Source: a virus | IMG/VR virus record: IMGVR_UViG_3300025141_000408 | Location: 1-33,307 of that record | Reading direction: 5' to 3' (one strand) | DNA length: 33,307 bases | In this document: positions 3,584-33,307 of the stretch, piece by piece | Numbering within the stretch: the first letter of the stretch is position 1 | Layout: each line of letters opens with the position of its first letter | Made by a program: the position numbers and the translations under genes | The notes under the pieces: model-generated | What the model was told of the DNA's origin: nothing | Databases searched by the model: none | What the model saw: the letters and a program-made list of their open reading frames with translations, nothing else

Positions 3584-3586
3584 GTC

Positions 3587-3715
3587 TTAAGTTCTCTTTT
3601 TCTTTTTCTTTGAAGTGGCACCCTTTATAGGACGTTTTGCGGCGCCCCGGCCACTTTTTTGCGTTGGTTTTTTAGCGCTTTCTTTATTTTTACTTGACCC
3701 ACCGCCTCTAGGCAT
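3587..3715 (-). CDS. Lys/Arg-rich 42-residue protein
   Basis: The ATG at 3713-3715 opens a 42-residue frame ending just before the 226-residue gene. It is extremely basic (about 16 Lys/Arg) and Ser/Gly-rich, starts MPRGGG and ends KKKKKRT. It follows another Lys-rich small gene by a single base, and the two share the same style of C-terminal tail, so they may be duplicates or serve the same role. Nucleic-acid binding or DNA condensation is the obvious guess from charge. Its placement among virion genes and the tight spacing support it being a real gene. Confidence 0.6.
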   Translation of the reverse strand: MPRGGGSSKNKESAKKPTQKSGRGAAKRPIKGATSKKKKKRT

Positions 3716-3716
3716 T

Positions 3717-3851
3717 TTAGGACCTCTTTCTTTTTTTCTTTGATGTTTTGGATTTTCGCGCAGATCCGGACTTTTTGGAATTTGCTGCTTTCATAGCCAT
3801 CTTAATACCTTCTTTGGTATATGGGTATTCTTTGCCTTTTACTTTGGGCAT
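3717..3851 (-). CDS. Lys-rich 44-residue phage protein
   Basis: The frame from ATG 3849-3851 encodes 44 residues. The N-terminus MPKVKGKEYPYTKEGIKMA resembles a short 'K.YPYT..G...A' motif that I recall from many small basic proteins near phage connector genes. The rest is Ser/Lys/Arg-rich and ends KKKRKRS. It is followed by the second basic gene at 3587-3715. Function is not known for this type; binding to DNA inside the capsid is a possibility based only on charge. Confidence 0.65.
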   Translation of the reverse strand: MPKVKGKEYPYTKEGIKMAMKAANSKKSGSARKSKTSKKKRKRS

Positions 3852-3857
3852 TTGCTT

Positions 3858-3947
3858 TTACTCCTCATCAGGATCGACCTTGGGTATATCGGTCGGTTCG
3901 ATTTGACGCTGTAAATCATTGTCGTCGCCTATTGTCCAGGGGTCCAT
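3858..3947 (-). CDS. Acidic 29-residue small protein
   Basis: The ATG at 3945-3947 overlaps the stop of the upstream gene as TAATG, with a GAGG sequence 8 bases before it, so translational coupling is likely. The 29-residue product is acidic and Pro-containing (MDPWTIGDDN start, DPDEE end). It is too short to classify. The coupling on one side and the close spacing to the Lys-rich gene on the other (6 bases) are the reasons for calling it. Confidence 0.45.
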   Translation of the reverse strand: MDPWTIGDDNDLQRQIEPTDIPKVDPDEE

Positions 3948-4174
3948 TAGTCATCCTCTTCGTCGAGCTCAATCATCATAAGAAGGTCCATAGCTATATC
4001 GAACAATACCCCTGCGACGGACCATTTATCCATATCGAACTCAGTTTGCCAGTATACAACCTGCCTCTTAACCTCTTCATGCATCTTTTCTGGTGGGGTT
4101 TTCACAAAGGCATCCTTATCAGTTCTGCGTCCCAACATCGTCCACTGAGCCTGGATGGCTTGTCCCATATACAT
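3947..4174 (-). CDS. Small acidic-tailed hypothetical protein overlapping the phosphoesterase gene
   Basis: The frame continues upstream to 4303, but the first 43 codons lie inside the phosphoesterase gene in another frame and look like out-of-frame sequence. Plausible starts are ATG 4174 (used here), 4168 or 4138; none has a strong ribosome site. From 4174 the product has 75 residues. A helical middle (PPEKMHEEVKRQVVYWQTEF) is followed by a hydrophobic helix (VAGVLFDIAMDLLMMI) and an acidic end (ELDEEDD). It could be a small helical chaperone or structural protein. The stop overlaps the next ATG as TAATG. Confidence 0.55.
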   Translation of the reverse strand: MYMGQAIQAQWTMLGRRTDKDAFVKTPPEKMHEEVKRQVVYWQTEFDMDKWSVAGVLFDIAMDLLMMIELDEEDD

Positions 4175-4902
4175 TCGACAATCAACATAGCCGAGCCCCA
4201 CATTGAGGTGTCTTTTCTTTTTGCCCAGGTGGGTTTTAAGGGACCACAAGTTCCTACATTGGAGTACCAAAAAGGTAAACTTATCTTCTGGGTTCTCTTG
4301 CATTGGGTCACTGGCACAGGGCGATGGGTGTGCCCTCTGACGGCTAAACTAAATGGTATCCAGCCACAAGCCCCAATCATCTGGAGCCCCTCTAGCTCGT
4401 CTGAGCTTAATCCAGCGTCAAATCCGTGGTAAAAATGAGCTTGCCCAACCCGATAGACCCCTCGGCTAGATTTTTCATAGGGCAGCCAATACCATTTATT
4501 AAACTCCTCACCATATTCAGGGTGCTTCCTCCAATCCACAAGACCCCGCAGCGGCTTAGGTATTCGCCTGGGGTCTTGTGTTAAGAGGTTATCGTCATGG
4601 TTGCCTGTGTTTATCCAGCGATTACAGTCCTCTGGGAGCACTTCTCGAATGGATTTAAGCAGATTATGAGCGTGTTCATACTCATCCGCCAAAGAGTGGT
4701 CAAATTCGTTGACATGTATTGATGCGCTTGCTGCCTCAAAGACATCACCTAGATGGCCGAAATGAGTTAACCCTTTAATGTTTGAAAGTGTATCTAAAAT
4801 CCATTGGTGGGTTTCGGGGGGTGTAAAAGGCGAGTGTGTGCAAGAAATAACAGCTATTTTTGCTGTTCGCCTCCCTGTTCCCTGGATTTTTGTCTGAGAC
4901 AA
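4102..4902 (-). CDS. Calcineurin-like metallophosphoesterase
   Basis: The 266-residue protein shows the ordered metal-binding motifs of the calcineurin-like phosphoesterase family: an N-terminal strand ending SCTHSPF (residues about 20-26), FGHLGDVFE (about 48-56), NTGNHDD (about 98-104), FYHGFD (about 158-163) and RGHTHRP (about 189-195). The family hydrolyses phosphoesters with two metal ions. The first motif, normally DxH, has Cys in place of Asp here, which is unusual. The start is a TTG at 4902 with a good AGAGG site 8 bases upstream, placed just after the membrane-protein gene. The substrate is unknown; nucleic-acid or nucleotide processing is the common role of phage members. Confidence 0.85.
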   Translation of the reverse strand: MSQTKIQGTGRRTAKIAVISCTHSPFTPPETHQWILDTLSNIKGLTHFGHLGDVFEAASASIHVNEFDHSLADEYEHAHNLLKSIREVLPEDCNRWINTGNHDDNLLTQDPRRIPKPLRGLVDWRKHPEYGEEFNKWYWLPYEKSSRGVYRVGQAHFYHGFDAGLSSDELEGLQMIGACGWIPFSLAVRGHTHRPVPVTQCKRTQKISLPFWYSNVGTCGPLKPTWAKRKDTSMWGSAMLIVECIWDKPSRLSGRCWDAELIRMPL

Positions 4903-4915
4903 TGTACGAGCCTCT

Positions 4916-5056
4916 TTAACCTTCGTATTTGCCGCCTGTTATGAGTTTAAGGAATGCTTTCTTAAACATCATGCCAGCGCCAAAACCAAGAATGCCAACT
5001 AGGGCTATAAACCAAATAGTTCCAAAGAATCCGGACATGGATGCCAAGGTAGTCAT
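4916..5056 (-). CDS. Small single-pass membrane protein (46 residues)
   Basis: The start is taken as ATG 5056 because it forms an ATGA overlap with the stop of the lipoprotein-like gene; a longer frame would run back into that gene. The product has 46 residues: a short N-terminus, one strong hydrophobic helix (residues about 10-30, TIWFIALVGILGFGAGMMF) and a basic tail (KKAFLKLITGGK). This topology suits a small holin-like or membrane-anchoring protein. It sits in a row of four membrane genes and just before the phosphoesterase. No family was recognised. Confidence 0.6.
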   Translation of the reverse strand: MTTLASMSGFFGTIWFIALVGILGFGAGMMFKKAFLKLITGGKYEG

Positions 5057-5421
5057 CGGGTTTTTTTCTCCAATAGGATTTGCCTCACGACTTTGTACGT
5101 CCAAGCCCCACTAATCAGGGCCGTACAAGCCACGAGTGGATAAAATAAGTAATCGTCGTATTTCGCAACCATGTAGTTCAAAATCACCAAAATTATCCCG
5201 CCAATTACAGGAAACCAGCCTCTTTGGCCTCTGGTAATCACGAGTAGGACCATACCTGCTATAAGGCAAAGGCTCCCGGTAATTGATAACACTGTGAGTG
5301 GCTCTGAGGACTCTGTCGCTTGGCTAATAATCGAGCTTGCTTTCCCAGAAACCATTCCTCCAGGGTTAGAATATTGGCACCCTGTCAAAAAAACGGCTAT
5401 TAAGAGATACAGTTTAGACAT
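5053..5421 (-). CDS. Lipoprotein-like multi-pass membrane protein, lysis candidate
   Basis: The start ATG 5421 has AGGAG five bases upstream; a GTG at 5427 would be too close to it. The 122-residue product begins MSKLYLLIAVFLTGC, a clear lipoprotein signal with lipobox LTGC and the lipid-carrying Cys at 15. Three further hydrophobic segments follow (about 46-64, 71-86 and 92-111) and the C-terminus is basic (LLEKKTR). A lipoprotein signal followed by several membrane helices is an odd combination. Together with its small membrane neighbours, it could belong to a holin/spanin-type lysis group. This is inference; no endolysin is visible nearby. Confidence 0.6.
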   Translation of the reverse strand: MSKLYLLIAVFLTGCQYSNPGGMVSGKASSIISQATESSEPLTVLSITGSLCLIAGMVLLVITRGQRGWFPVIGGIILVILNYMVAKYDDYLFYPLVACTALISGAWTYKVVRQILLEKKTR

Positions 5422-5429
5422 CTGCACTC

Positions 5430-5633
5430 CTATTCCAAAGGTTTTCGGATTGTAAAAGCTTTATCAAAATGAGATTGAAGTTGGCTGCTATTGCTGGTTA
5501 CCCGGCGTTCAAGCGCTTCGATATGTTTTTCGGCGGCAGTAAGCCTTGCACTTACACGCCATAAAAACCCGAATATGCCAAGAATAGCAGGGCCTGCAAT
5601 ACTCAAACCAATTGTTGTTAGGTGGTCTTCCAT
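5430..5633 (-). CDS. Membrane-anchored coiled-coil protein (67 residues)
   Basis: The 67-residue protein has one hydrophobic helix near the N-terminus (residues about 8-26, IGLSIAGPAILGIFGFLW) followed by a charged heptad-like helix (RLTAAEKHIEALERRV and on) and a basic end. The start ATG 5633 has AGGTGA upstream and lies 3 bases after the previous stop. The layout, one membrane helix then a coiled coil, is the same as in the neighbouring gene at 5637-5900. It resembles small holin-associated or XhlA-like proteins in architecture only. Confidence 0.6.
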   Translation of the reverse strand: MEDHLTTIGLSIAGPAILGIFGFLWRVSARLTAAEKHIEALERRVTSNSSQLQSHFDKAFTIRKPLE

Positions 5634-5636
5634 ACA

Positions 5637-5900
5637 TCACCTATTTGAGTTCTCTAGCCGATCAATCCTACGGCGAAGATCAGCTAAAACACTTGCGTGG
5701 TTTGAATCGTTTGCTTCAGAAAGAACTTGAGATTTCACCAAGTCCTGGGAAATCTCTCGTAGTTCACTGATATCAGATGAGTTGTTATGTATTTCCTGAT
5801 CGCGGCGGCCAATATTCAGGAAGATACCCGCTGCTGTTGCAGTGAGAACGAGTGTCTGAAGAGCAGGCCAAAGACTACTAAGAACCTTATCAGAACTCAT
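5637..5900 (-). CDS. Membrane-anchored coiled-coil protein (87 residues)
   Basis: I chose ATG 5900; an in-frame TTG at 5924 would add eight residues, and neither has a strong ribosome site. The protein has a hydrophobic helix (about residues 9-30, LWPALQTLVLTATAAGIFLNI) and then a long polar heptad-type helix ending LRRRIDRLENSNR. It shares its architecture with the next gene, so the pair may act together or be duplicates. It is the first gene after the hairpin-rich gap at 5.94-6.25 kb. A role in lysis or the membrane is inferred from topology and neighbours. Confidence 0.6.
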   Translation of the reverse strand: MSSDKVLSSLWPALQTLVLTATAAGIFLNIGRRDQEIHNNSSDISELREISQDLVKSQVLSEANDSNHASVLADLRRRIDRLENSNR

Positions 5901-5940
5901 ATTTGCAACCAAACAAGCTATCAAGAATAAAGGTGAATAT

Positions 5941-13238: not shown

Positions 13239-13499
13239 CTAAACTTGTCCTTCAATCCATTGATCCATAGCTTCATCAACCTCTTCATCAATCAGGTCAA
13301 TAATTGTCTGGTGTACAAGGTCTTCCCACCGATCCAGAACTTGGTCAAAGGCATCTTCGACAACGTTGGTAACAAGGTGAGCGGGGCATTTCTGTGTTAC
13401 AACCCGTTCTTGGATTTCAGAGCGAAGCCACTCTTCGGTGAATCCGAGCGCCATGCCGTCGTGTTTTTCCCTGGTCTTGTGGTCTGATATGACAAACAT
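13239..13499 (-). CDS. Hypothetical acidic helical protein (86 residues)
   Basis: The start ATG 13499 is chosen because AGAAAGGA lies about five bases upstream; the longer frame to 13562 lacks support. The 86-residue product starts MFVISDHKTREKHDGMALGF. Its remainder is helix-rich and strongly acidic, with VVEDAFDQVLDRWEDLVHQT followed by IIDLIDEEVDEAMDQW. No family was recognised. The run of regularly spaced acidic and hydrophobic residues suggests a helical bundle that may bind a partner protein. Confidence 0.65.
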   Translation of the reverse strand: MFVISDHKTREKHDGMALGFTEEWLRSEIQERVVTQKCPAHLVTNVVEDAFDQVLDRWEDLVHQTIIDLIDEEVDEAMDQWIEGQV

Positions 13500-13594
13500 G
13501 TTTGTCCTTTCTAAAAGCAAAGTAAAGGGGCAGTTTTGCGTCGGTTGCCCCAGGACGGCCATCGCGGCGAGCTAATGGCGGGAGCGTGAATCCG

Positions 13595-14038: not shown

Positions 14039-14632
14039 TCAATCCCACAAATTCAAAAGAATTGTGAGGTCGTGCCCGTCCACTAGGCCATTTTGGTCAA
14101 GGTCTGCGCTGCCTGAAGTGCCCCACTCACTCAACAGTATGGCAAGATCCCCGCCGTCAACGGTGCCGTTGCCATCAATATCAGCACTCGCTTGCATTAT
14201 GACTACAAAATCCCATACCCAAGACATGTAATCAGGTCCGATAATTTCAGCTTCGCAATAAAAACGAACATCTTCGTTTGTTACGCAAATTTCGTATGGG
14301 TGACTGGGGCGGTCGATGTAGGCGCGATAATCTATGACTGCGACAGGTGGGCTGTGTAATAAATACTGCAAGCTCCACGCCATATTTTCAATGCGATCCG
14401 CGTTGCTGGTGCCAAGAGTGACGGTTCCAGCGGTCGAAAGATGGTCAGCTTGCGCTGCATGGTTGTCTTTGTAGCTGGCGAAAATCCGGCCAGTGACTGT
14501 CTCTTGGGTGAAAGACCACGCTCCCTTGTGGCTGGTTACGACACTTTCATCATTGTCAACGATTGGGCAGAGCGCAGCGGTTAAAAGAAGGCTTGCGACG
14601 ATTGCCAGTTGTGATCGCACTACTTTGCGCAT
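14039..14632 (-). CDS. Predicted secreted protein with C-terminal type I dockerin domain
   Basis: From ATG 14632 the 197-residue protein begins with a basic N-terminus and hydrophobic core (MRKVVRSQLAIVASLLLTAA), a Sec-type signal peptide. The middle part (about 30-145) is unrecognised. The last 50 residues hold two calcium-binding dockerin repeats, D-I-D-G-N-G-T-V-D-G-G-D (151-162) then LAILLSEWG, and D-L-D-Q-N-G-L-V-D-G-H-D (177-188) then LTILLNLW. Type I dockerins bind cohesins or anchor secreted proteins to surfaces. Repeats with this LLxxWG ending are especially common in Planctomycetota. The gene stands apart, just after a terminator, like a moron. A longer start exists at 14686 but would precede the signal peptide. 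Confidence 0.8.
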   Translation of the reverse strand: MRKVVRSQLAIVASLLLTAALCPIVDNDESVVTSHKGAWSFTQETVTGRIFASYKDNHAAQADHLSTAGTVTLGTSNADRIENMAWSLQYLLHSPPVAVIDYRAYIDRPSHPYEICVTNEDVRFYCEAEIIGPDYMSWVWDFVVIMQASADIDGNGTVDGGDLAILLSEWGTSGSADLDQNGLVDGHDLTILLNLWD

Positions 14633-14660: not shown

Positions 14661-14702
14661 TAAATAAAAACCCCCAACCTGCCCAAATGAGCAGGAAGGG
14701 GG
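14661..14702 (-). terminator. Intrinsic terminator downstream of 14725-15171
   Basis: On the minus strand a hairpin CCCCC-CCTGC / GCAGG-GGGGG, with a small internal A/A or T/T loop and an 8-base loop, is followed by TTTTTATTTA (14670-14661). It lies 22 bases after the stop of the gene at 14725. It would end transcription from the upstream accessory genes and isolate the dockerin gene. Confidence 0.8.
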
Positions 14703-14724
14703 CTTTGAAAGGACTACCGAATCT

Positions 14725-15171
14725 CTATAGCCGTGATACTTTCCCCCGCGCAGCGACAACCTCTAAATCGCGCCTGTAGCGCAAAGACGACTTGTTTGGC
14801 GCTTCATGCCCATCGATTCCAGCAAGGAGTTCTGATGCAATCGCTGGCTTTGTAGGCACAGCGTATGGGCCTACCGTTTCATCCATTGATTTAACCATCC
14901 AATGCGGGGCATCGGCGCGAATCAAATGGACTTCGAGCGTCTTAAAATGCAAATGCTTTGAAACTGTAAACTCGCGCACCAAATACAATTCAAATTGCAC
15001 TTCTGTCGCAGTGTGCAACCGCTTCACGCCTGATCGGGCCCAGTCGGGCCCCTCAATCGCATGGTATACCACTTCGCCAATTGCACCAGCATCAGTCGTG
15101 ACTGGCTTGAGAATGTGATCCACTACATCCCTTACGGGATCTTGTCTCGAAATAAATCCGTACCAACCCAT
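14725..15171 (-). CDS. Hypothetical protein, DUF6927-like ends
   Basis: The 148-residue protein begins MGWYGF and has a late segment KSMDETVGPYAVPTKPAIA (about residues 94-112). These features recall the 'MGW... K.MDE..GPY' pattern that I associate with a DUF6927-type family of unknown function; this is from memory and weak. No membrane or signal sequence is present. The start ATG 15171 is preceded by TTGAAAGGAACTGAAT, the leader shared by several genes of this block. Its stop lies just before the intrinsic terminator. Confidence 0.65.
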   Translation of the reverse strand: MGWYGFISRQDPVRDVVDHILKPVTTDAGAIGEVVYHAIEGPDWARSGVKRLHTATEVQFELYLVREFTVSKHLHFKTLEVHLIRADAPHWMVKSMDETVGPYAVPTKPAIASELLAGIDGHEAPNKSSLRYRRDLEVVAARGKVSRL

Positions 15172-16581: not shown

Positions 16582-17289
16582 TTAGTGGCTGGGGTACACA
16601 GTGTCCGCGTGAGGGTCTGCGCAAATGGTGCAGGCTCCGCACTTGGCGCGGCCTGATTTGGTCTTGAGTTTCTGCGCAGCTACGGCGGGACAGACGTAGC
16701 AAGGGCGCCCACTGGCGCGGCTGCGCTTCTTCGCTAGTGCCTTCGCGGCATTGACCCCACCACCAACCGCTACGAATGAAACAGCACCGGATGCCTCAAG
16801 AAAACGCCGTTCAGATGTTCCCGACTCGCGTACCGTTACACCGAGCCCGCGCAATGCGCGTCGGTAGCGCGTAGCCTTCTGCCGCGTTTCTAAGGGAAGA
16901 TGAATAGGTACGGAGCGATCAGCAAGCCAGGAGCAGAGAGCGCGTAGCGCCTGGACATCGTCCGCGGTTGGATGCGGAGGTAATGAGCCTGAAACGTTGA
17001 ATCTAAACCAGACTGGGACGAATCCAGCACGGGCTCCGTCTTCTAGCTCCGCCAATGCAGCGCGAGCAGTGGCCGCTACCCCTTGCGCCGAATGTCGGCC
17101 AAGCTTGGCGGCGTACTCCTTGCGGAATGATTCCAGGCGCTCCGCATAGCAGCGGGTGCCATAGTGCGGGCACCTCTTGGAACAGTGAGAGCCAGAAGCG
17201 TCAGCCGATCCAGCGAACGATAGACCCAGAGAGCCCGGGATTCCTTTACCAAATGAAGAGCAAACGGAAGGTAATACCTTTAGCTGCAT
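16582..17289 (-). CDS. GP88-like cysteine-rich protein (235 residues)
   Basis: From ATG 17289 (GGGGGAAG just upstream) the 235-residue protein resembles the phage 'Gene product 88' family. It has an early FGKGIPGSLGLSF segment, then cysteines around residues 36-47 (CSKRC-PHYGTRCYAERLESF). A middle has VPVWFRFNVSGSLPP and IHLPLETRQKATRYRRAL, and the C-terminal set is CYVCP and CGACTICADPHADTVYPSH. The family's function is unknown; the Cys-rich ends may bind metal or Fe-S. Base composition is GC-rich relative to the head genes. It overlaps the next upstream gene by 10 bases. Confidence 0.7.
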   Translation of the reverse strand: MQLKVLPSVCSSFGKGIPGSLGLSFAGSADASGSHCSKRCPHYGTRCYAERLESFRKEYAAKLGRHSAQGVAATARAALAELEDGARAGFVPVWFRFNVSGSLPPHPTADDVQALRALCSWLADRSVPIHLPLETRQKATRYRRALRGLGVTVRESGTSERRFLEASGAVSFVAVGGGVNAAKALAKKRSRASGRPCYVCPAVAAQKLKTKSGRAKCGACTICADPHADTVYPSH

Positions 17290-17567
17290 TGCTTCCCCCC
17301 GTTCCAGTTTTGGCGGACCCACTCTTCTACGTCTTCGCAGTCGAGCCCGGACGGTAGCTCAAATAGTCGCGCAGCCTCTACAGGCATCCAGCTACCGTCT
17401 TGGAAGGCGCACACAATGAGCCCGGAGCAGCCTTGCTCCTCTTGGCCATCCGTGGCAATAGGCTCGGGGAGAGTGTACTCGGAGCCATCGCGCGTGATTG
17501 CTCGCGCCAGATCTTGGAACAGATCTAGAAATACATTGCGCAAGAATGGACTAGATAGATAGTGCAT
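17280..17567 (-). CDS. Hypothetical protein (95 residues)
   Basis: The 95-residue protein starts MHYLSSPFLRNVFLDLFQDL with an amphipathic helix. It continues with GCSGLIVCAFQDGSWMPVEA and ends with an acidic helix (CEDVEEWVRQNWNGGKQCS). The start ATG 17567 has the TTGAAAGGAT leader. It overlaps the GP88-like gene by 10 bases. No family was recognised. Confidence 0.65.
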   Translation of the reverse strand: MHYLSSPFLRNVFLDLFQDLARAITRDGSEYTLPEPIATDGQEEQGCSGLIVCAFQDGSWMPVEAARLFELPSGLDCEDVEEWVRQNWNGGKQCS

Positions 17568-26785: not shown

Positions 26786-29700
26786 TCAGTTATTCTCTTT
26801 AAGTTCTTCGTCTCGTTGTTTAATTTCTTCAAGTTGATCGATGTACAAATGAATGTCATTTATTAAGCCGTTATAAAGTTGTGCGCGAGCTTCCTGGTCA
26901 TCTTCTGCTTTCCACAGTTTAATCGTGTTGTTTATGTGGCCGCGGTATTTGCTCGATGCTTCTCTGGTATTTTCTGTTGCCTGAGAAAGCCTGTAAAACT
27001 TATCTAGCGAACGCGATCTAAGTCGATTAGCAAATCCTACATCTATCATTGAGCCTGCCATGTACTCCAAATTCTGGCCTAAATTTTCTATACTAGGCTC
27101 AGCCGCAAGCTGATAAGCTAGAGCAATTTGCTTACCGCGAATCCCAAATCCAGCTTCAAAAACAGCCCGTGCCATTCGTGGGTCTTTTGTGTCTCCTGCA
27201 ACAGACCGTCCTCCGATTGCATCGCCAACCGTAAGTATGTCTGTCAACCATTGCATCCAGCTAGTTTGATAAATAGCAGGGACGTTAGCAAATTTTTCTT
27301 GATTCCGCTGATCTACAGGTTTAGCCATTTCATAAGGAGGAACGATAGGGGTCTTGTGAAACGCATGGCGATTAGAATAGCGAGCAACTACACCTGAAAG
27401 CGGTCCAAAAAACCCGGCTCGAACAGTTTCAAGAGGGCCTAAAAGCTGTCGCATGGTGTGCCCTAAAGCACTATACGGATCTCGCTTTCCACGGATATGC
27501 ATTGCACCCATTTCAAAAAAGCTGCCAGCAACCCCGATTTCATAAGGTTTGGGCACCTTTACCCAACCGCCTCCAGGAAGAGCTAGATTCCAAAACATTG
27601 AGCGTTGCCAATCTGGAAGTTCTGCATATTCCTCTTCATAACCCATTAACATATTCCATGCGTATGTCATAACAGACGGAATAACTGAATATGTCAGTAA
27701 GCGGAAAAAGAAAAGCGGCATACTGCGCTTGCCAACCCTAGCAGTAGATCGCAAGCCTTGAATTGAAGGGTTGAAAAACATTACAATTCTACCTATTTGC
27801 CGGGACCATTTTCCGGCAACAGCAAAATCAATCAACTCTCGTGACGCTCGCATAGCTTCAAGACGAGCGTCATTTTCACTAAACCCTTGCTCCAGATATT
27901 TGGCTTTAACTCTCCTGTATTCGGCAACACGGTTAGTCATTTCGCCTGAACGAACAAGCTCAAGATAAGTTCTTCCCGCGTTTTTGGTAGTCGTCCATAT
28001 ATTGCCATAAACATTTCGCGGCCCAGCTAATTCTTTAATTGCTCTTTGAACAAACTTGTCACTGTTTTGTTTGCCGCCACGGATGCTGTACCACAAACCA
28101 ACTTGACTGCCACCTGCGCCTATAAGCTGACTTTCGGCTTCTAGATATTCACTATAGGTAGAAGTAAATTCATTTTTATCACGCTTAACTATTGCTTTAG
28201 TGGCAGCTTTGGCAACGACAAAACTGTCCCAAGGCATAGAGCCGCCTTGAGACTTAAATGCGCGATCCCAAGCATCACGGAACTTGTTGCGAACTGCAAA
28301 AGGCAAGGAATTAACAATAAAGGATTGCATAGTCCCGCGAACAATATTGAACCAATTAAGAAGCGCAAAACTAACGTCGTCATTTAGAGTCTCAAACGCT
28401 TTAGCGGCTCTTTTGTCTACAACGTGCCACCCTTGTGCTTCGCCATCAATAAATACAGTCAAATTAGCTTCTTGGGTTTCCGAAGCTGGCTGCATTATCT
28501 GTGAAGTTGCTGGAACCGGAGTTCTTGTGCTTATGTTAGAGCCTTCAGCTTCTGTTTCTTTTATAAGCTCAACAATAGCTCTGCCAATAAGGTTTCTTTG
28601 CGCTTCAAATCGAGCGTCGTAAGCCATTTTGACAAGCTGTTCAGTAGGCATTGCAATGTCAGCAGTGCTGCCTCTTCGCATTGGCGTTTCTGCCATGCCT
28701 TTACCAAGCGATTTACCGGGTTGTCCGCGTATTTCTTCAGCAAGCCTAAGATCGTCATAAGTTCCAACTACTGGGCCGACAAAAGTCATGCCCCGGCTTT
28801 CTAAAGTTCTTTTCATTGTGACGTATTGCTGACGCTCTTCCTTAATAGACTGGTAAGTTTCGTTAGACATGCGGCCACTATCAACCAATGGCTTCAATAC
28901 CATTGCGTCTGCCCAGTCTCGCCACATTTGGGCAGCACGTTCGTAACGCTCAAATTCGCCGGGTTCCCAATTGTCCTGGTCTTGTAGCCATTGTTCTAAA
29001 CGTTCGTGCGCTGGTTCAGCGGATTCAAGGCCAAGGCCAGCAGGAGTAATTCTGCTGTTTTTCCTGGCAACGTGTTGAAGAATTTTGTCAGGCTCAAGAT
29101 TGTCCTTGCTTATATTAAGACGCTTTCGATATTTCTGAATTGTTTCCGTATGGAATCGTTTTTCAATAACAAGGTTGTCTTTGGACTCACGCAAGACAAT
29201 TCGCTCAACTCTATATTCACCGTGGGTTATGTCGCCATCGTCTTTTGCGCGTTTTAGAAGCCTAAGCTCTAAATCAATTTCTGCAATTGCGTCAGTTACA
29301 GCCGCCAAATCCTCTAGCGCTGTAATTAACATTATTGCGTAACGATGATTGTTTCGTGCGTCCTCTAACGCGGATTGGTTAAGCATAAATGCTTCAAGCC
29401 GAAGTTTAGACTCAAAAATCCTAGCGTCAGAAGTTTGTCCTTCCGGAATAAGCGAAGCAAAAATTTCTTGCAACCCATAATGCAACTCTCGTCGCCCAGT
29501 CTCCACATTTCTTGGGCCAAATTTTAGTTGCTCCGCAAAATTGTCGTCAAAACCCCCAAGGCCGGAAAGCCTATTAAGTGGATTGCGTTCTCCAACAAAA
29601 GTCTTTTCCCAATCTTTGCCGCCCGCTTCTAAGCCAAGTTCGTCAATAAGATTGAGTAAGTAGTGACGGTCATCAATAAACAAATACCGCAAACGACCGT

Positions 29701-32700
29701 AGCCAAGTTTGTCTTTTACATTTTGAGCAAACGAAGCAAGCACACGGTCCATTCGCTCTACCCAGGGGAGCATCATGTTTTCATAAAAGTCTGAATCCGC
29801 AAACATACCGACAAGCTTGAACCATGGGTTTCCGTGGTAGAAAGCGCGAACTCGCAAGCCAAATACATGCAAGCCAGTTATAAAATCGTCACCCATTTTC
29901 CCGCCATGCTCTGGGTGAGTACGAATGGCGTTTTCAAAGTATTCGTAGAACCAAGGCGATTTTTCTTTTGCAGAATCTGGGTTAAAAAGATACTCAACAA
30001 TAAACGCTGCCACCATTTCCTGCCGCTTGTATTGCGGGGAAGAACTTGCTTTTGCGCTAGACCCGTTGGCGGTTAAGAAAAACAGCAAAGACTCGTCAAA
30101 GTTTGCAAGCAGTTCTAGCTTTTCTTTTTGCTGGGCTGACGTAGTGTTGTTTATTCGCGTTCGGGCTTTGCCTAGCGGAATGTTTAACATGTCTGGCGTA
30201 AGTTCAGAAAGCAGGCCAAAATGGTCGTGAATAAAGTGACCTACTTCATGTGCCATTGTCAAAAAGTCGTTGTGATATCGAATAGCAATTTGACCAGTTT
30301 TAGGCTGGTAAAATCCACCTGCACCCCGCATCATCCTCTTCGGTCGGCTAACAGGACGGCCAATTACCTTTTGCAAATCCAAGCGAACTTGTCGCAAGCT
30401 TAAACGCTTAAGGGGCACGTTTTCTGGCAGAGGGGCAGGAGTTACTTCGTGGCGCAGGTTTGTATCAACACCAAGCGCGTCGGTGTATTCAGAACTGTCC
30501 GCCAAAAGCGGGTCATCGCTTCTTACTGAAGGATTGTCTCGCGGCGCATTGTTTTCGGCAAGATCCGGCAGTTGAGAAAGAATGCTGCCTTCTGGTGAAT
30601 GTGCTTGAGCAAGTGAATAGATGTTATCTTCTGGTGCGGGGTCAATACGGAATTCTTCTTGGACAGCCGTGCCATTGGGGTTAGGTCTTTCGGGCAACGC
30701 CGCTTCAATGGTTTCAAAATTCAGCATGTTTTCATTGTTTTGGACAATGCTGATTCCTGCTTCTGAAGCTCCGGCATCAAAAACTAGAATGGCCGAGTGG
30801 TAGCCCATAACGCTCTTATGAAGAGGGGCAACGACGACATTTTGTTCAGCCAGCCAATCGAAGAAAGTGTTGTATCCAGGCGATTCACTGTCTTGCAAAA
30901 TTGACCAGGGCACAATGGTGACTAATCTGCCATTGTCGTTAAGAAGGTCAAAGGCGCTTTCGATGTGACTATACGCCAAAAGAGAATCGCCCTTGCTGTT
31001 AGGGGCAATTGGCGGCACCATTGCAATACTGTCAAACTGGCCTTGTTCTTCCCGTATTTTTGAATAAATGCCAGGGTCGTCAAAATTACCCTGATAGCTA
31101 TTCATGCTTGCTGGAAGTTTTGTAGATGCGGCAGTGATGTGCGTAGCTTTAGGATCAACAATAGTGATACTATTTGAGTAATCCATATAAATAAGCGCAT
31201 CGCCTTTGCCTGCACTTGGGTCAAGGATCTTTTGATTGTTGGGTTTATTAGCGCCTAAGAGGCGAGCGAAAAGCATAGCAACAGGACGGCGAGAACTAAT
31301 AGTTTCAGGGTTAGGGTCAACCGGAGTCCTGTAATTAGTTCGCGTTTCTTCTGTTTGAGCTTGCGCATAATCTTGAACTCGGATTTGGTGTGCGCTTGCA
31401 GAATCTTCTCCTCTGTATCCATCTAGGATTGTATCCGTAGCGTCTACAGTCCCTTCAAAGTGGAAAGACTCTAATTGCGAAATTGATTGCATGTCCTCTT
31501 TAGATAAGCCTTTGACAGTAGCGCCCAAGTCTTTCATTCGTTGAGCAACGCGGTTGGCTAACCCGGATTCAAATGGCATGTCCTGTGATCGAGCAAAAAG
31601 CCACTCCATGTAAACAGGACTTTTCATTCCGTATCTAGCAAGTCGGCCTGAAACCTGATCTACTTTGGCGGCTACCCAGGGAAGTGACAGCATAATTTGT
31701 GCACTTCCGTTAGGGCGATTGCCTAATTTGTCGTGCAGGGAAAGCCCTGTTCCACCCTTGCCCATAGTGACAATTAAAATGGGCACCTCATTGGTTTCCC
31801 ATTTCTTTAGATTGGCATTGGCTTGTTGGTCTGAGACACGCCCTGTGTATTCCGCAGCACGAACAGTCTCTTCGTCATTAAATCCCGACAAAAGCTCGTC
31901 AGCAACACTAGGCAAAGTTATTGCTAAGGAAGGATCGTTTTTCACAAGCCGAGCAATGTCATAGGAAACAACAGAAAATGGCATAACCCCAGCTTTGTCA
32001 TCGGCTAACCACTCCTCATATTCCTTAATAACCTCATCAGGCTCATAAAGCCCATCGTCGTCTTTCCAATAATCAAGTTGACCACCAAAGGCCAAGTATT
32101 CAGGGCGCTGAAATTTGCCAATTTGTGTGTCGGCTTTAGTTTCCGTAAATACAGCTATTTGCCTGCCTGCATCTAAATGCGCTTGAATCTTATCCTTAGC
32201 AGCGTCAACCTTTCCGCCTTCAGAAATTCGCTTTAGTCGGTGCGTAAGCCAAGCCCAGGTGTTTTGCGCCATCCCCTCGTCCGACTCATCTACAAGGGCA
32301 TCAAAAGCTTTAGTAAGTTGTTCTGCGTATTCCGAATATGTGCGATTGTGTGCATCGCCAGGAATAACATTTTCCCCGATATCAACTTTAGAAAACGTCA
32401 TTTCAACAAAATTAGTTTTCTTTTGTTGTCCAGTTTCGGGGTCTGTAATAGTTAGCTTCTTTGGCAAAACCTTCGTTCGCCGCGTAAACATTCCCCGCTT
32501 AGCAAACCATTCACTTGCGCCGATTGCGTCTTCTTGTGCTTTTTTGGCCTGCTCTACAGATTCAGTAGGCTTAGGCCACATCGGCACGATAGTGTTATTT
32601 TTTGGATTGAACCGAGTTTCTGCGCCGAACATTACGGCCCATTTGGTGAAACCGGGAATTGTGGTTTCTACACCAGAAGACTCGTCAGTAAATGTTACAG

Positions 32701-33307
32701 GCTCTCCGAACATTCCAGAAGCTGCAAGGTATTGAGCGTCTACAGGGTTTTTAAATGGTGTCGCAGAAGCAAATACAGTAAGACCGCCACTTGCCTTTAC
32801 GTCACTAATAAGGTTTTTAACTATTTGCCCTGTAGGCTTATGAAGATTAGGAACTCCTGCCATTTCGCTGTCAGGCTCGTCCAAAATTAAAACGTAACGC
32901 CCTTCTTGCTTAACCCTATTAAATGCGTCGGAGCCTTCTTCTAGCCCTTTCTTTATAGCAGCGGAGTCAAACGGCCTTACTGGATTTCTGGCACTGCGAA
33001 GTTGTGCGTAAGTAACAATTTGTATGTGCTTCGTTACTAGGTCACCGTTTTTAAGCCGCAAATCTGTGTTTTCAGCGTCTTCAGAAATTTGTTTTCTAAG
33101 ATTGTTTCCAGTAGTTACATAAACAACAGTTGCGTCCGGATTGTCATTTAAGATTTCTGCCGCAGCGCCAAGTAAAACAAACGTCTTTCCAGTGCCTGCT
33201 TCGTTTGCCAAAATAAATCCGTTGCGCGGACCTTTAGGCATATCCTCTATCGTTTCGTCAAACTGTTGTATCTTTGGACCAAAATACGCCTCTTTGATTA
33301 ATCCGAT
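26786..33307 (-). CDS. Giant polyvalent protein (partial): helicase, methylase-like, zincin and LPD38-like regions
   Basis: The frame is open to the right edge, so at least 2173 residues are present and the N-terminus is missing. Numbering from the Met at 33241: an SF2 helicase has NEAGTGKT (13-20), DEPD (121-124), SATP (159-162) and QVSGRLARYG (529-538). Next is a DNA-methylase-like fold with ILDPSAGKGDAL (672-683) but VPPI in place of the usual (N/D)PP(Y/F). A zinc metallopeptidase has HEVGH (998-1002) and a downstream Glu helix. Long helical regions follow, then a C-terminal region (about 1820-1980, MFFNPSIQGLRSTARVGKRS) with a hydrophobic helix and VPKPYE, like phage LPD38. Such polyvalent proteins are thought to be packaged and injected with DNA. 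Confidence 0.85.
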   Translation of the reverse strand: MGLIKEAYFGPKIQQFDETIEDMPKGPRNGFILANEAGTGKTFVLLGAAAEILNDNPDATVVYVTTGNNLRKQISEDAENTDLRLKNGDLVTKHIQIVTYAQLRSARNPVRPFDSAAIKKGLEEGSDAFNRVKQEGRYVLILDEPDSEMAGVPNLHKPTGQIVKNLISDVKASGGLTVFASATPFKNPVDAQYLAASGMFGEPVTFTDESSGVETTIPGFTKWAVMFGAETRFNPKNNTIVPMWPKPTESVEQAKKAQEDAIGASEWFAKRGMFTRRTKVLPKKLTITDPETGQQKKTNFVEMTFSKVDIGENVIPGDAHNRTYSEYAEQLTKAFDALVDESDEGMAQNTWAWLTHRLKRISEGGKVDAAKDKIQAHLDAGRQIAVFTETKADTQIGKFQRPEYLAFGGQLDYWKDDDGLYEPDEVIKEYEEWLADDKAGVMPFSVVSYDIARLVKNDPSLAITLPSVADELLSGFNDEETVRAAEYTGRVSDQQANANLKKWETNEVPILIVTMGKGGTGLSLHDKLGNRPNGSAQIMLSLPWVAAKVDQVSGRLARYGMKSPVYMEWLFARSQDMPFESGLANRVAQRMKDLGATVKGLSKEDMQSISQLESFHFEGTVDATDTILDGYRGEDSASAHQIRVQDYAQAQTEETRTNYRTPVDPNPETISSRRPVAMLFARLLGANKPNNQKILDPSAGKGDALIYMDYSNSITIVDPKATHITAASTKLPASMNSYQGNFDDPGIYSKIREEQGQFDSIAMVPPIAPNSKGDSLLAYSHIESAFDLLNDNGRLVTIVPWSILQDSESPGYNTFFDWLAEQNVVVAPLHKSVMGYHSAILVFDAGASEAGISIVQNNENMLNFETIEAALPERPNPNGTAVQEEFRIDPAPEDNIYSLAQAHSPEGSILSQLPDLAENNAPRDNPSVRSDDPLLADSSEYTDALGVDTNLRHEVTPAPLPENVPLKRLSLRQVRLDLQKVIGRPVSRPKRMMRGAGGFYQPKTGQIAIRYHNDFLTMAHEVGHFIHDHFGLLSELTPDMLNIPLGKARTRINNTTSAQQKEKLELLANFDESLLFFLTANGSSAKASSSPQYKRQEMVAAFIVEYLFNPDSAKEKSPWFYEYFENAIRTHPEHGGKMGDDFITGLHVFGLRVRAFYHGNPWFKLVGMFADSDFYENMMLPWVERMDRVLASFAQNVKDKLGYGRLRYLFIDDRHYLLNLIDELGLEAGGKDWEKTFVGERNPLNRLSGLGGFDDNFAEQLKFGPRNVETGRRELHYGLQEIFASLIPEGQTSDARIFESKLRLEAFMLNQSALEDARNNHRYAIMLITALEDLAAVTDAIAEIDLELRLLKRAKDDGDITHGEYRVERIVLRESKDNLVIEKRFHTETIQKYRKRLNISKDNLEPDKILQHVARKNSRITPAGLGLESAEPAHERLEQWLQDQDNWEPGEFERYERAAQMWRDWADAMVLKPLVDSGRMSNETYQSIKEERQQYVTMKRTLESRGMTFVGPVVGTYDDLRLAEEIRGQPGKSLGKGMAETPMRRGSTADIAMPTEQLVKMAYDARFEAQRNLIGRAIVELIKETEAEGSNISTRTPVPATSQIMQPASETQEANLTVFIDGEAQGWHVVDKRAAKAFETLNDDVSFALLNWFNIVRGTMQSFIVNSLPFAVRNKFRDAWDRAFKSQGGSMPWDSFVVAKAATKAIVKRDKNEFTSTYSEYLEAESQLIGAGGSQVGLWYSIRGGKQNSDKFVQRAIKELAGPRNVYGNIWTTTKNAGRTYLELVRSGEMTNRVAEYRRVKAKYLEQGFSENDARLEAMRASRELIDFAVAGKWSRQIGRIVMFFNPSIQGLRSTARVGKRSMPLFFFRLLTYSVIPSVMTYAWNMLMGYEEEYAELPDWQRSMFWNLALPGGGWVKVPKPYEIGVAGSFFEMGAMHIRGKRDPYSALGHTMRQLLGPLETVRAGFFGPLSGVVARYSNRHAFHKTPIVPPYEMAKPVDQRNQEKFANVPAIYQTSWMQWLTDILTVGDAIGGRSVAGDTKDPRMARAVFEAGFGIRGKQIALAYQLAAEPSIENLGQNLEYMAGSMIDVGFANRLRSRSLDKFYRLSQATENTREASSKYRGHINNTIKLWKAEDDQEARAQLYNGLINDIHLYIDQLEEIKQRDEELKENN

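Follow-up and report, generated by a model that had tools for sequence, protein, structure and literature searches.

Dockerins, which are docking tags that depend on calcium, are textbook components of the cellulosome and are abundant in planctomycetes, where many secreted proteins carry them. Among phage proteins that modify the host surface or exclude superinfection, the Llp lipoprotein of phage T5 is an example. The type I dockerin of the clostridial cellulosome (PF00404) consists of two repeats, each a calcium loop with one helix, and a compact C-terminal form, near NCBIfam NF041540 (dockerin_GC), occurs in secreted proteins of the Phycisphaerae. For freshwater planctomycetes a cohesin/dockerin complex, the 'planctosome', has been put forward as a hypothesis on host peptidases, which takes dockerin use beyond cellulose breakdown, and the passages concerned with it describe no phage part (PMC6461901). 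The dockerin we describe here is phage-encoded and lies in a window of 33,307 bases, the whole of an IMG/VR record in which terminal repeats, if any, do not exceed 10 bases. It shares the two-repeat, loop-and-single-helix plan of the clostridial type I dockerin, but differs from it in a compact 26-residue period, in helices ending LLxxW and in the lack of any recognised enzyme on the same protein. With the Phycisphaerae dockerins it shares spacing, C-terminal position and up to 64% identity, whereas it is carried by a phage on bodies for which no cellular relative was found. If our best explanation is right, the product also resembles the Llp-type lipoproteins as a small exported phage protein on the host surface, a likeness in proposed function only, as these have a lipid anchor whereas the window's protein would be retained by its dockerin. 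The parts are of known kinds and their combination is new; literature text searches surfaced no paper on phage dockerins and PHROGs holds no family for these proteins.

The gene occupies exactly the coordinates of the preliminary description but is read on the minus strand, from 14632 to 14039 (197 codons; Table 1), and the plus strand across it is crowded with stops. The N-terminus, MRKVVRSQLAIVASLLLTAALC, is basic and hydrophobic, and its hydrophobic peak is exceeded by only one other of the window's 41 gene models; signal peptides were called from hydrophobicity alone. The relatives described below share conserved cysteines and hydrophobic N-termini, that of type IIb (MQVPICAVALTAMQ...) being weak as a signal. 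Together these N-termini agree with the earlier view of a secreted protein. The earlier order of signal peptide and then dockerin repeats also stands, but the two are not directly joined, a body of about 125 residues intervening, which in the AlphaFold model is beta-rich and poorly resolved. Judged from the sequence, Cys22 and Cys116 are likely to form a disulfide; a lipoprotein reading was rejected, since no lipobox precedes Cys22.

Table 1. Coordinates of the dockerin gene, its parts and associated features in the window.
Feature	Position	Strand	Basis or remark
Secreted dockerin protein gene, 197 aa	14039..14632	-	ATG start at 14632, TGA stop 14041-14039
Signal-type N-terminus, residues 1-21 (MRKVVRSQLAIVASLLLTAAL), inferred	14570..14632	-	Hydrophobicity; hydrophobic N-termini of relatives
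Body, residues 22-149, predicted beta-rich	14186..14569	-	Conserved Cys22, Cys116
Cys22	14567..14569	-	Conserved
Cys116	14285..14287	-	Conserved
C-terminal dockerin pair, residues 150-197	14042..14185	-	Profile matches, AlphaFold helices
Calcium loop 1, DIDGNGTVDGGD, residues 151-162	14147..14182	-	Sequence
Calcium loop 2, DLDQNGLVDGHD, residues 177-188	14069..14104	-	Sequence
Intrinsic terminator of upstream gene 14725-15171	14662..14706	-	Ends ~30 nt before dockerin ATG
Calcineurin-like phosphoesterase	4102..4866	-	Homologues flank dockerin gene in 17/48 related loci
Phosphoesterase-adjacent site	3584..4101	-	Dockerin gene in G008/G011; small ORFs only in window

The C-terminal calcium-loop pair is a dockerin fold. 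With hmmscan, Dockerin_1 matches the window protein at 21.0 bits (E=4e-4; cut-off 22.9) and the type I and II relatives at 20.0-21.8 bits, and the sum over both stretches in frame, neighbours included, reaches 27.3 bits, above the cut-off of 22.9. We infer that the single scores are modest because the profile expects a longer repeat spacing; the GC-type profile NF041540 gives the window protein 20.5 bits, below its cut-off of 29. Both loops carry every calcium ligand (D/N at positions 1, 3, 5, 9 and 12) and lie 26 residues apart, and a search with the phage-family profile hits solved clostridial cellulosomal dockerins at E=4.4e-6. The AlphaFold model places a single helix behind each loop (residues 160-168 and 186-194, pLDDT about 82-96), the predicted arrangement being the F-hand, a loop and then one helix with no full EF-hand. 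Profile scores, loop ligands, fold model and family matches thus bear out the dockerin-bearing protein of the preliminary description. A chance EF-hand is ruled out by the F-hand geometry, family conservation and purifying selection.

Indeed, at least 51 IMG/VR contigs encode such dockerin proteins, many within the same phage clade by TerL, portal and MCP. Searches by TerL clade and by family profile were the only route to the relatives; scanning viral contigs and phage records with the whole protein as a single sequence gave no match. Among 50 related records Dockerin_1 matches at E<=1 in seven, three of them above the cut-off, while one match (L085) sits inside the RecT gene and was discarded as chance. 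The expectation that dockerins are rare in phages therefore holds for cultured phages, with no dockerin match in 50,697 annotated phage records, but not for uncultured ones, where the search for homologues in other phages that had been proposed earlier found more than 50 contigs. Three body types can be distinguished. Type I occurs in the window, G008 and G011, whose bodies are about 32% identical to one another; type II is found in 30 contigs; and type III, which has lost the first calcium loop, in 17 contigs and L156. Across types the bodies are 18-24% identical, the level of shuffled sequences, whereas the dockerins are 40-59% identical; profile comparison gives a marginal link only between types I and II (E=0.002, probability 13%), and hhalign finds none between type III and either. 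The dockerin is therefore the kept module, and the body has been exchanged or has diverged beyond recognition. As far as sequence identity can tell, these comparisons demonstrate module swapping, with the dockerin retained and the bodies exchanged. The family is under purifying selection, with dN/dS of 0.03-0.29 over ten pairs. An assembly chimera or host contamination is rejected for the family by conserved synteny and by the origin of the contigs in many metagenome sets, a rejection that extends to the family and not to the window copy by itself.

Dockerin-like repeats were also seen in other phage proteins. A tail fibre-like, collagen-rich protein of 1083 aa (L087:5188-8436) carries a dockerin pair internally, at residues 273-317, and is likely a virion adhesin with a dockerin, from an unrelated phage. 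Four viral-contig proteins of about 350 aa (L088:1541-2614, L091:2330-3388, L094:5191-6264 and L105:5167-6240) combine a trypsin-like GDSG[ST]P motif with a dockerin pair near the C-terminus and have no signal peptide, that of L088 matching Dockerin_1 at E=1.2e-8. Dockerin-like pairs are inserted in a baseplate-wedge-like protein (L090:1932-3515) and occur in short proteins (L096:546-1073, L104:3595-4122). In the phosphoesterase clade, EF-hand/dockerin-like repeats occur in a portal fusion protein (L159:9101-12121) and in two related proteins (L155:19471-20538, L154:18603-19859).

The best cellular matches to the window dockerin lie in two Phycisphaerae genomes (G141 and G153), at 49-64% identity with no length change. 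Their dockerins have the same 26-residue period and are C-terminal, and many of the proteins that carry them have signal-like N-termini (e.g. ...GDLDGDGVVGGADLALLLAEWGNAGDADLDGSGTVDAADLSILLDLWS). Relatives of the TerL in public genomes are found in Phycisphaerae MAGs (50-52%), Verrucomicrobia including the isolate Cerasicoccus frondis (45%) and Lentisphaerae. In a sampled comparison, whose genomes were drawn from a group picked for having a match, eight of the 298 Phycisphaerae genomes have a TerL relative, the centre genome counting among the eight, whereas in each of two comparison groups of 188 and 237 genomes the centre genome alone has one, an enrichment with Fisher p=0.002 when centre genomes are left out. 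TerL relatives and dockerin likeness thus point to a Phycisphaerae-like host, consistent with the planctomycete-type module proposed earlier as a host pointer.

The plus strand of the window encodes TerL and MCP, as assigned by PHROGs, and a further gene that we read as the portal; the minus strand encodes a helicase, RecT, an SU10-type adaptor and the phosphoesterase. The nearest TerL relatives are uncultured contigs (84-90% identical), and cultured phage TerL proteins are less than 27% identical among the matches listed. The dockerin gene falls in the stretch from 11.7 to 18.2 kb, for which relatives have few homologues. The intrinsic terminator reported upstream of it is real (-29.2 kcal/mol, z=-5.6, then a U run) and was missed by a simple scanner because of an internal loop; the promoter scan found no sigma-70-like promoter for the gene, and a 'tRNA T-arm-like' hairpin over the stop codon was set aside as not significant (z=-1.3). 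In relatives the dockerin genes keep a late-type neighbourhood of portal/MCP, minor-head and membrane-protein genes. In G008 and G011 the gene is flanked by the phosphoesterase and minor-head-like genes, the type II gene lies between the portal and scaffold/MCP genes (L020, L077), and the type III gene, which follows small membrane-protein/lipoprotein genes, stops 1-2 nt short of the phosphoesterase (L127, L128); 17 of 48 phosphoesterase loci have a dockerin gene within 2 kb. Neither relative-type site holds a dockerin gene in the window. The suggestion that the gene is a moron is not supported, as genes that are homologous or of the same architecture turn up repeatedly in the clade, elsewhere inside structural or membrane-gene blocks; the window copy is a relocated or exchanged member of a recurring phage family. 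Near the gene, a 107-aa protein (13239-13562, minus strand) has its 77% identical counterpart in G011 (L017); as this phage, too, bears a type I dockerin, the sequence likeness hints at exchange between these phages. Three small membrane/lipoprotein genes (5053-5924, minus strand), 57-91% identical across relatives, have no Pfam match, nor a PHROGs match for the two searched, and are possibly a lysis cassette.

We propose a model, to which we give a probability of roughly 0.5, in which an exported phage protein with a host docking tag stays on the infected envelope while its body masks or alters the surface. The infected Phycisphaerae-like host would export the protein through its signal peptide, and the protein would fold, probably disulfide-bonded, outside the cytoplasm. 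The C-terminal dockerin pair, copying the docking tag of the host secretome, would then hold it on the envelope or on extracellular complexes. Once there, the exchangeable beta-rich body would act at the surface, most likely by masking or altering it, with receptor masking, superinfection exclusion or progeny release as the possible effects. That the protein is exported and docked in the manner of host proteins is probable from its sequence, export because of the hydrophobic N-termini and the cysteine pair, and envelope docking because of the likeness to host tags. A function of the body at the surface is weakly inferred, from the position near late-type genes and analogy only, and by analogy receptor masking or superinfection exclusion in particular is a speculative and rather doubtful suggestion. 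The preliminary description suggested that the protein might anchor to host-surface cohesins, which we consider doubtful. Among 150 genomes of the Phycisphaerae class, dockerins (E<=1e-6) occur in 93 and Pfam cohesins in 21, with 16 genomes common to both, so that 77 of the 93 dockerin-rich genomes have no Pfam cohesin, and in one Phycisphaeraceae MAG 54 dockerins were counted but not a single cohesin. As most dockerin-rich genomes are without one, a cohesin is only one option for the docking partner.

The body could instead be a mere carrier for an active dockerin that competes for the host dockerin receptor and strips host extracellular complexes, thereby helping release or blocking receptors. 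The conservation of the dockerin and the interchangeable bodies favour such a decoy, which we nevertheless hold unlikely, as the bodies of a given type evolve under purifying selection and keep conserved cysteines, and a well-predicted beta sandwich (pLDDT 83, pTM 0.74) is modelled for type III, so that the bodies are more than ballast. The fold matches of the bodies bear on a further alternative, that the protein is a virion-associated adhesin, attaching to the host or its matrix by the dockerin or by a CBM-like body. Neither body model has a PDB match at E<=0.001; CBM2-like and cohesin-like sandwiches come up only at a non-significant E of about 0.02-0.5, and in the type III list carbohydrate-binding modules are among the better matches and cohesins lower, none significant. 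One BFVD match, at 1.3e-6, is to an unnamed entry, and the type III body was not found in 298 Phycisphaerae genomes in a search run without a positive control. The better matches of both models, to CBM2-type carbohydrate-binding modules (E about 0.03-0.05), the position of the G013 and G048 genes among head genes and the dockerin pairs of the tail fibre-like (L087) and baseplate-wedge-like (L090) proteins speak for an adhesin. The matches are not significant, however, and a Sec-type N-terminus would take the protein out of the cytoplasm, where virions are assembled, which makes a virion location quite unlikely. We regard as improbable a role in lysis, as a periplasmic accessory that acts with adjacent membrane proteins to disrupt the envelope: the type III gene does follow small membrane/lipoprotein genes 1-2 nt before the phosphoesterase, but in G013, G048 and the window the gene is distant from such genes, and no enzymatic domain is recognised. 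Finally, a passenger host gene, recently captured and with no phage function, would agree with the isolated position of the gene, which follows a terminator in a variable part of the window, but is largely refuted, and very improbable, because the family spans over 50 phage contigs, has dN/dS values well below 1 and occupies several independent genome positions.

Under the model of surface docking, the same tag on different bodies under selection suggests that related uncultured phages use the docking system of the host outside the cell. More broadly, the phages of Phycisphaerae-like hosts may carry secreted effectors in which interchangeable bodies are joined to a borrowed host tag and plugged into extracellular docking, a possibility that we advance tentatively. 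If this is true, the binding target of the tag would reveal the receptor for planctomycete dockerin proteins without cohesins. A dockerin kept while bodies are exchanged says that the tag matters at the infected cell surface, and the phage dockerin family provides a small, testable tool for finding the docking partner in the host. Elsewhere on the minus strand of the window, a DUF7227 protein (16582-17322) is 63-72% conserved in close relatives, and a 2151-aa protein (26786-33241), with relatives at 32-35%, reads as a helicase and methyltransferase with a virion-like C-terminal part.
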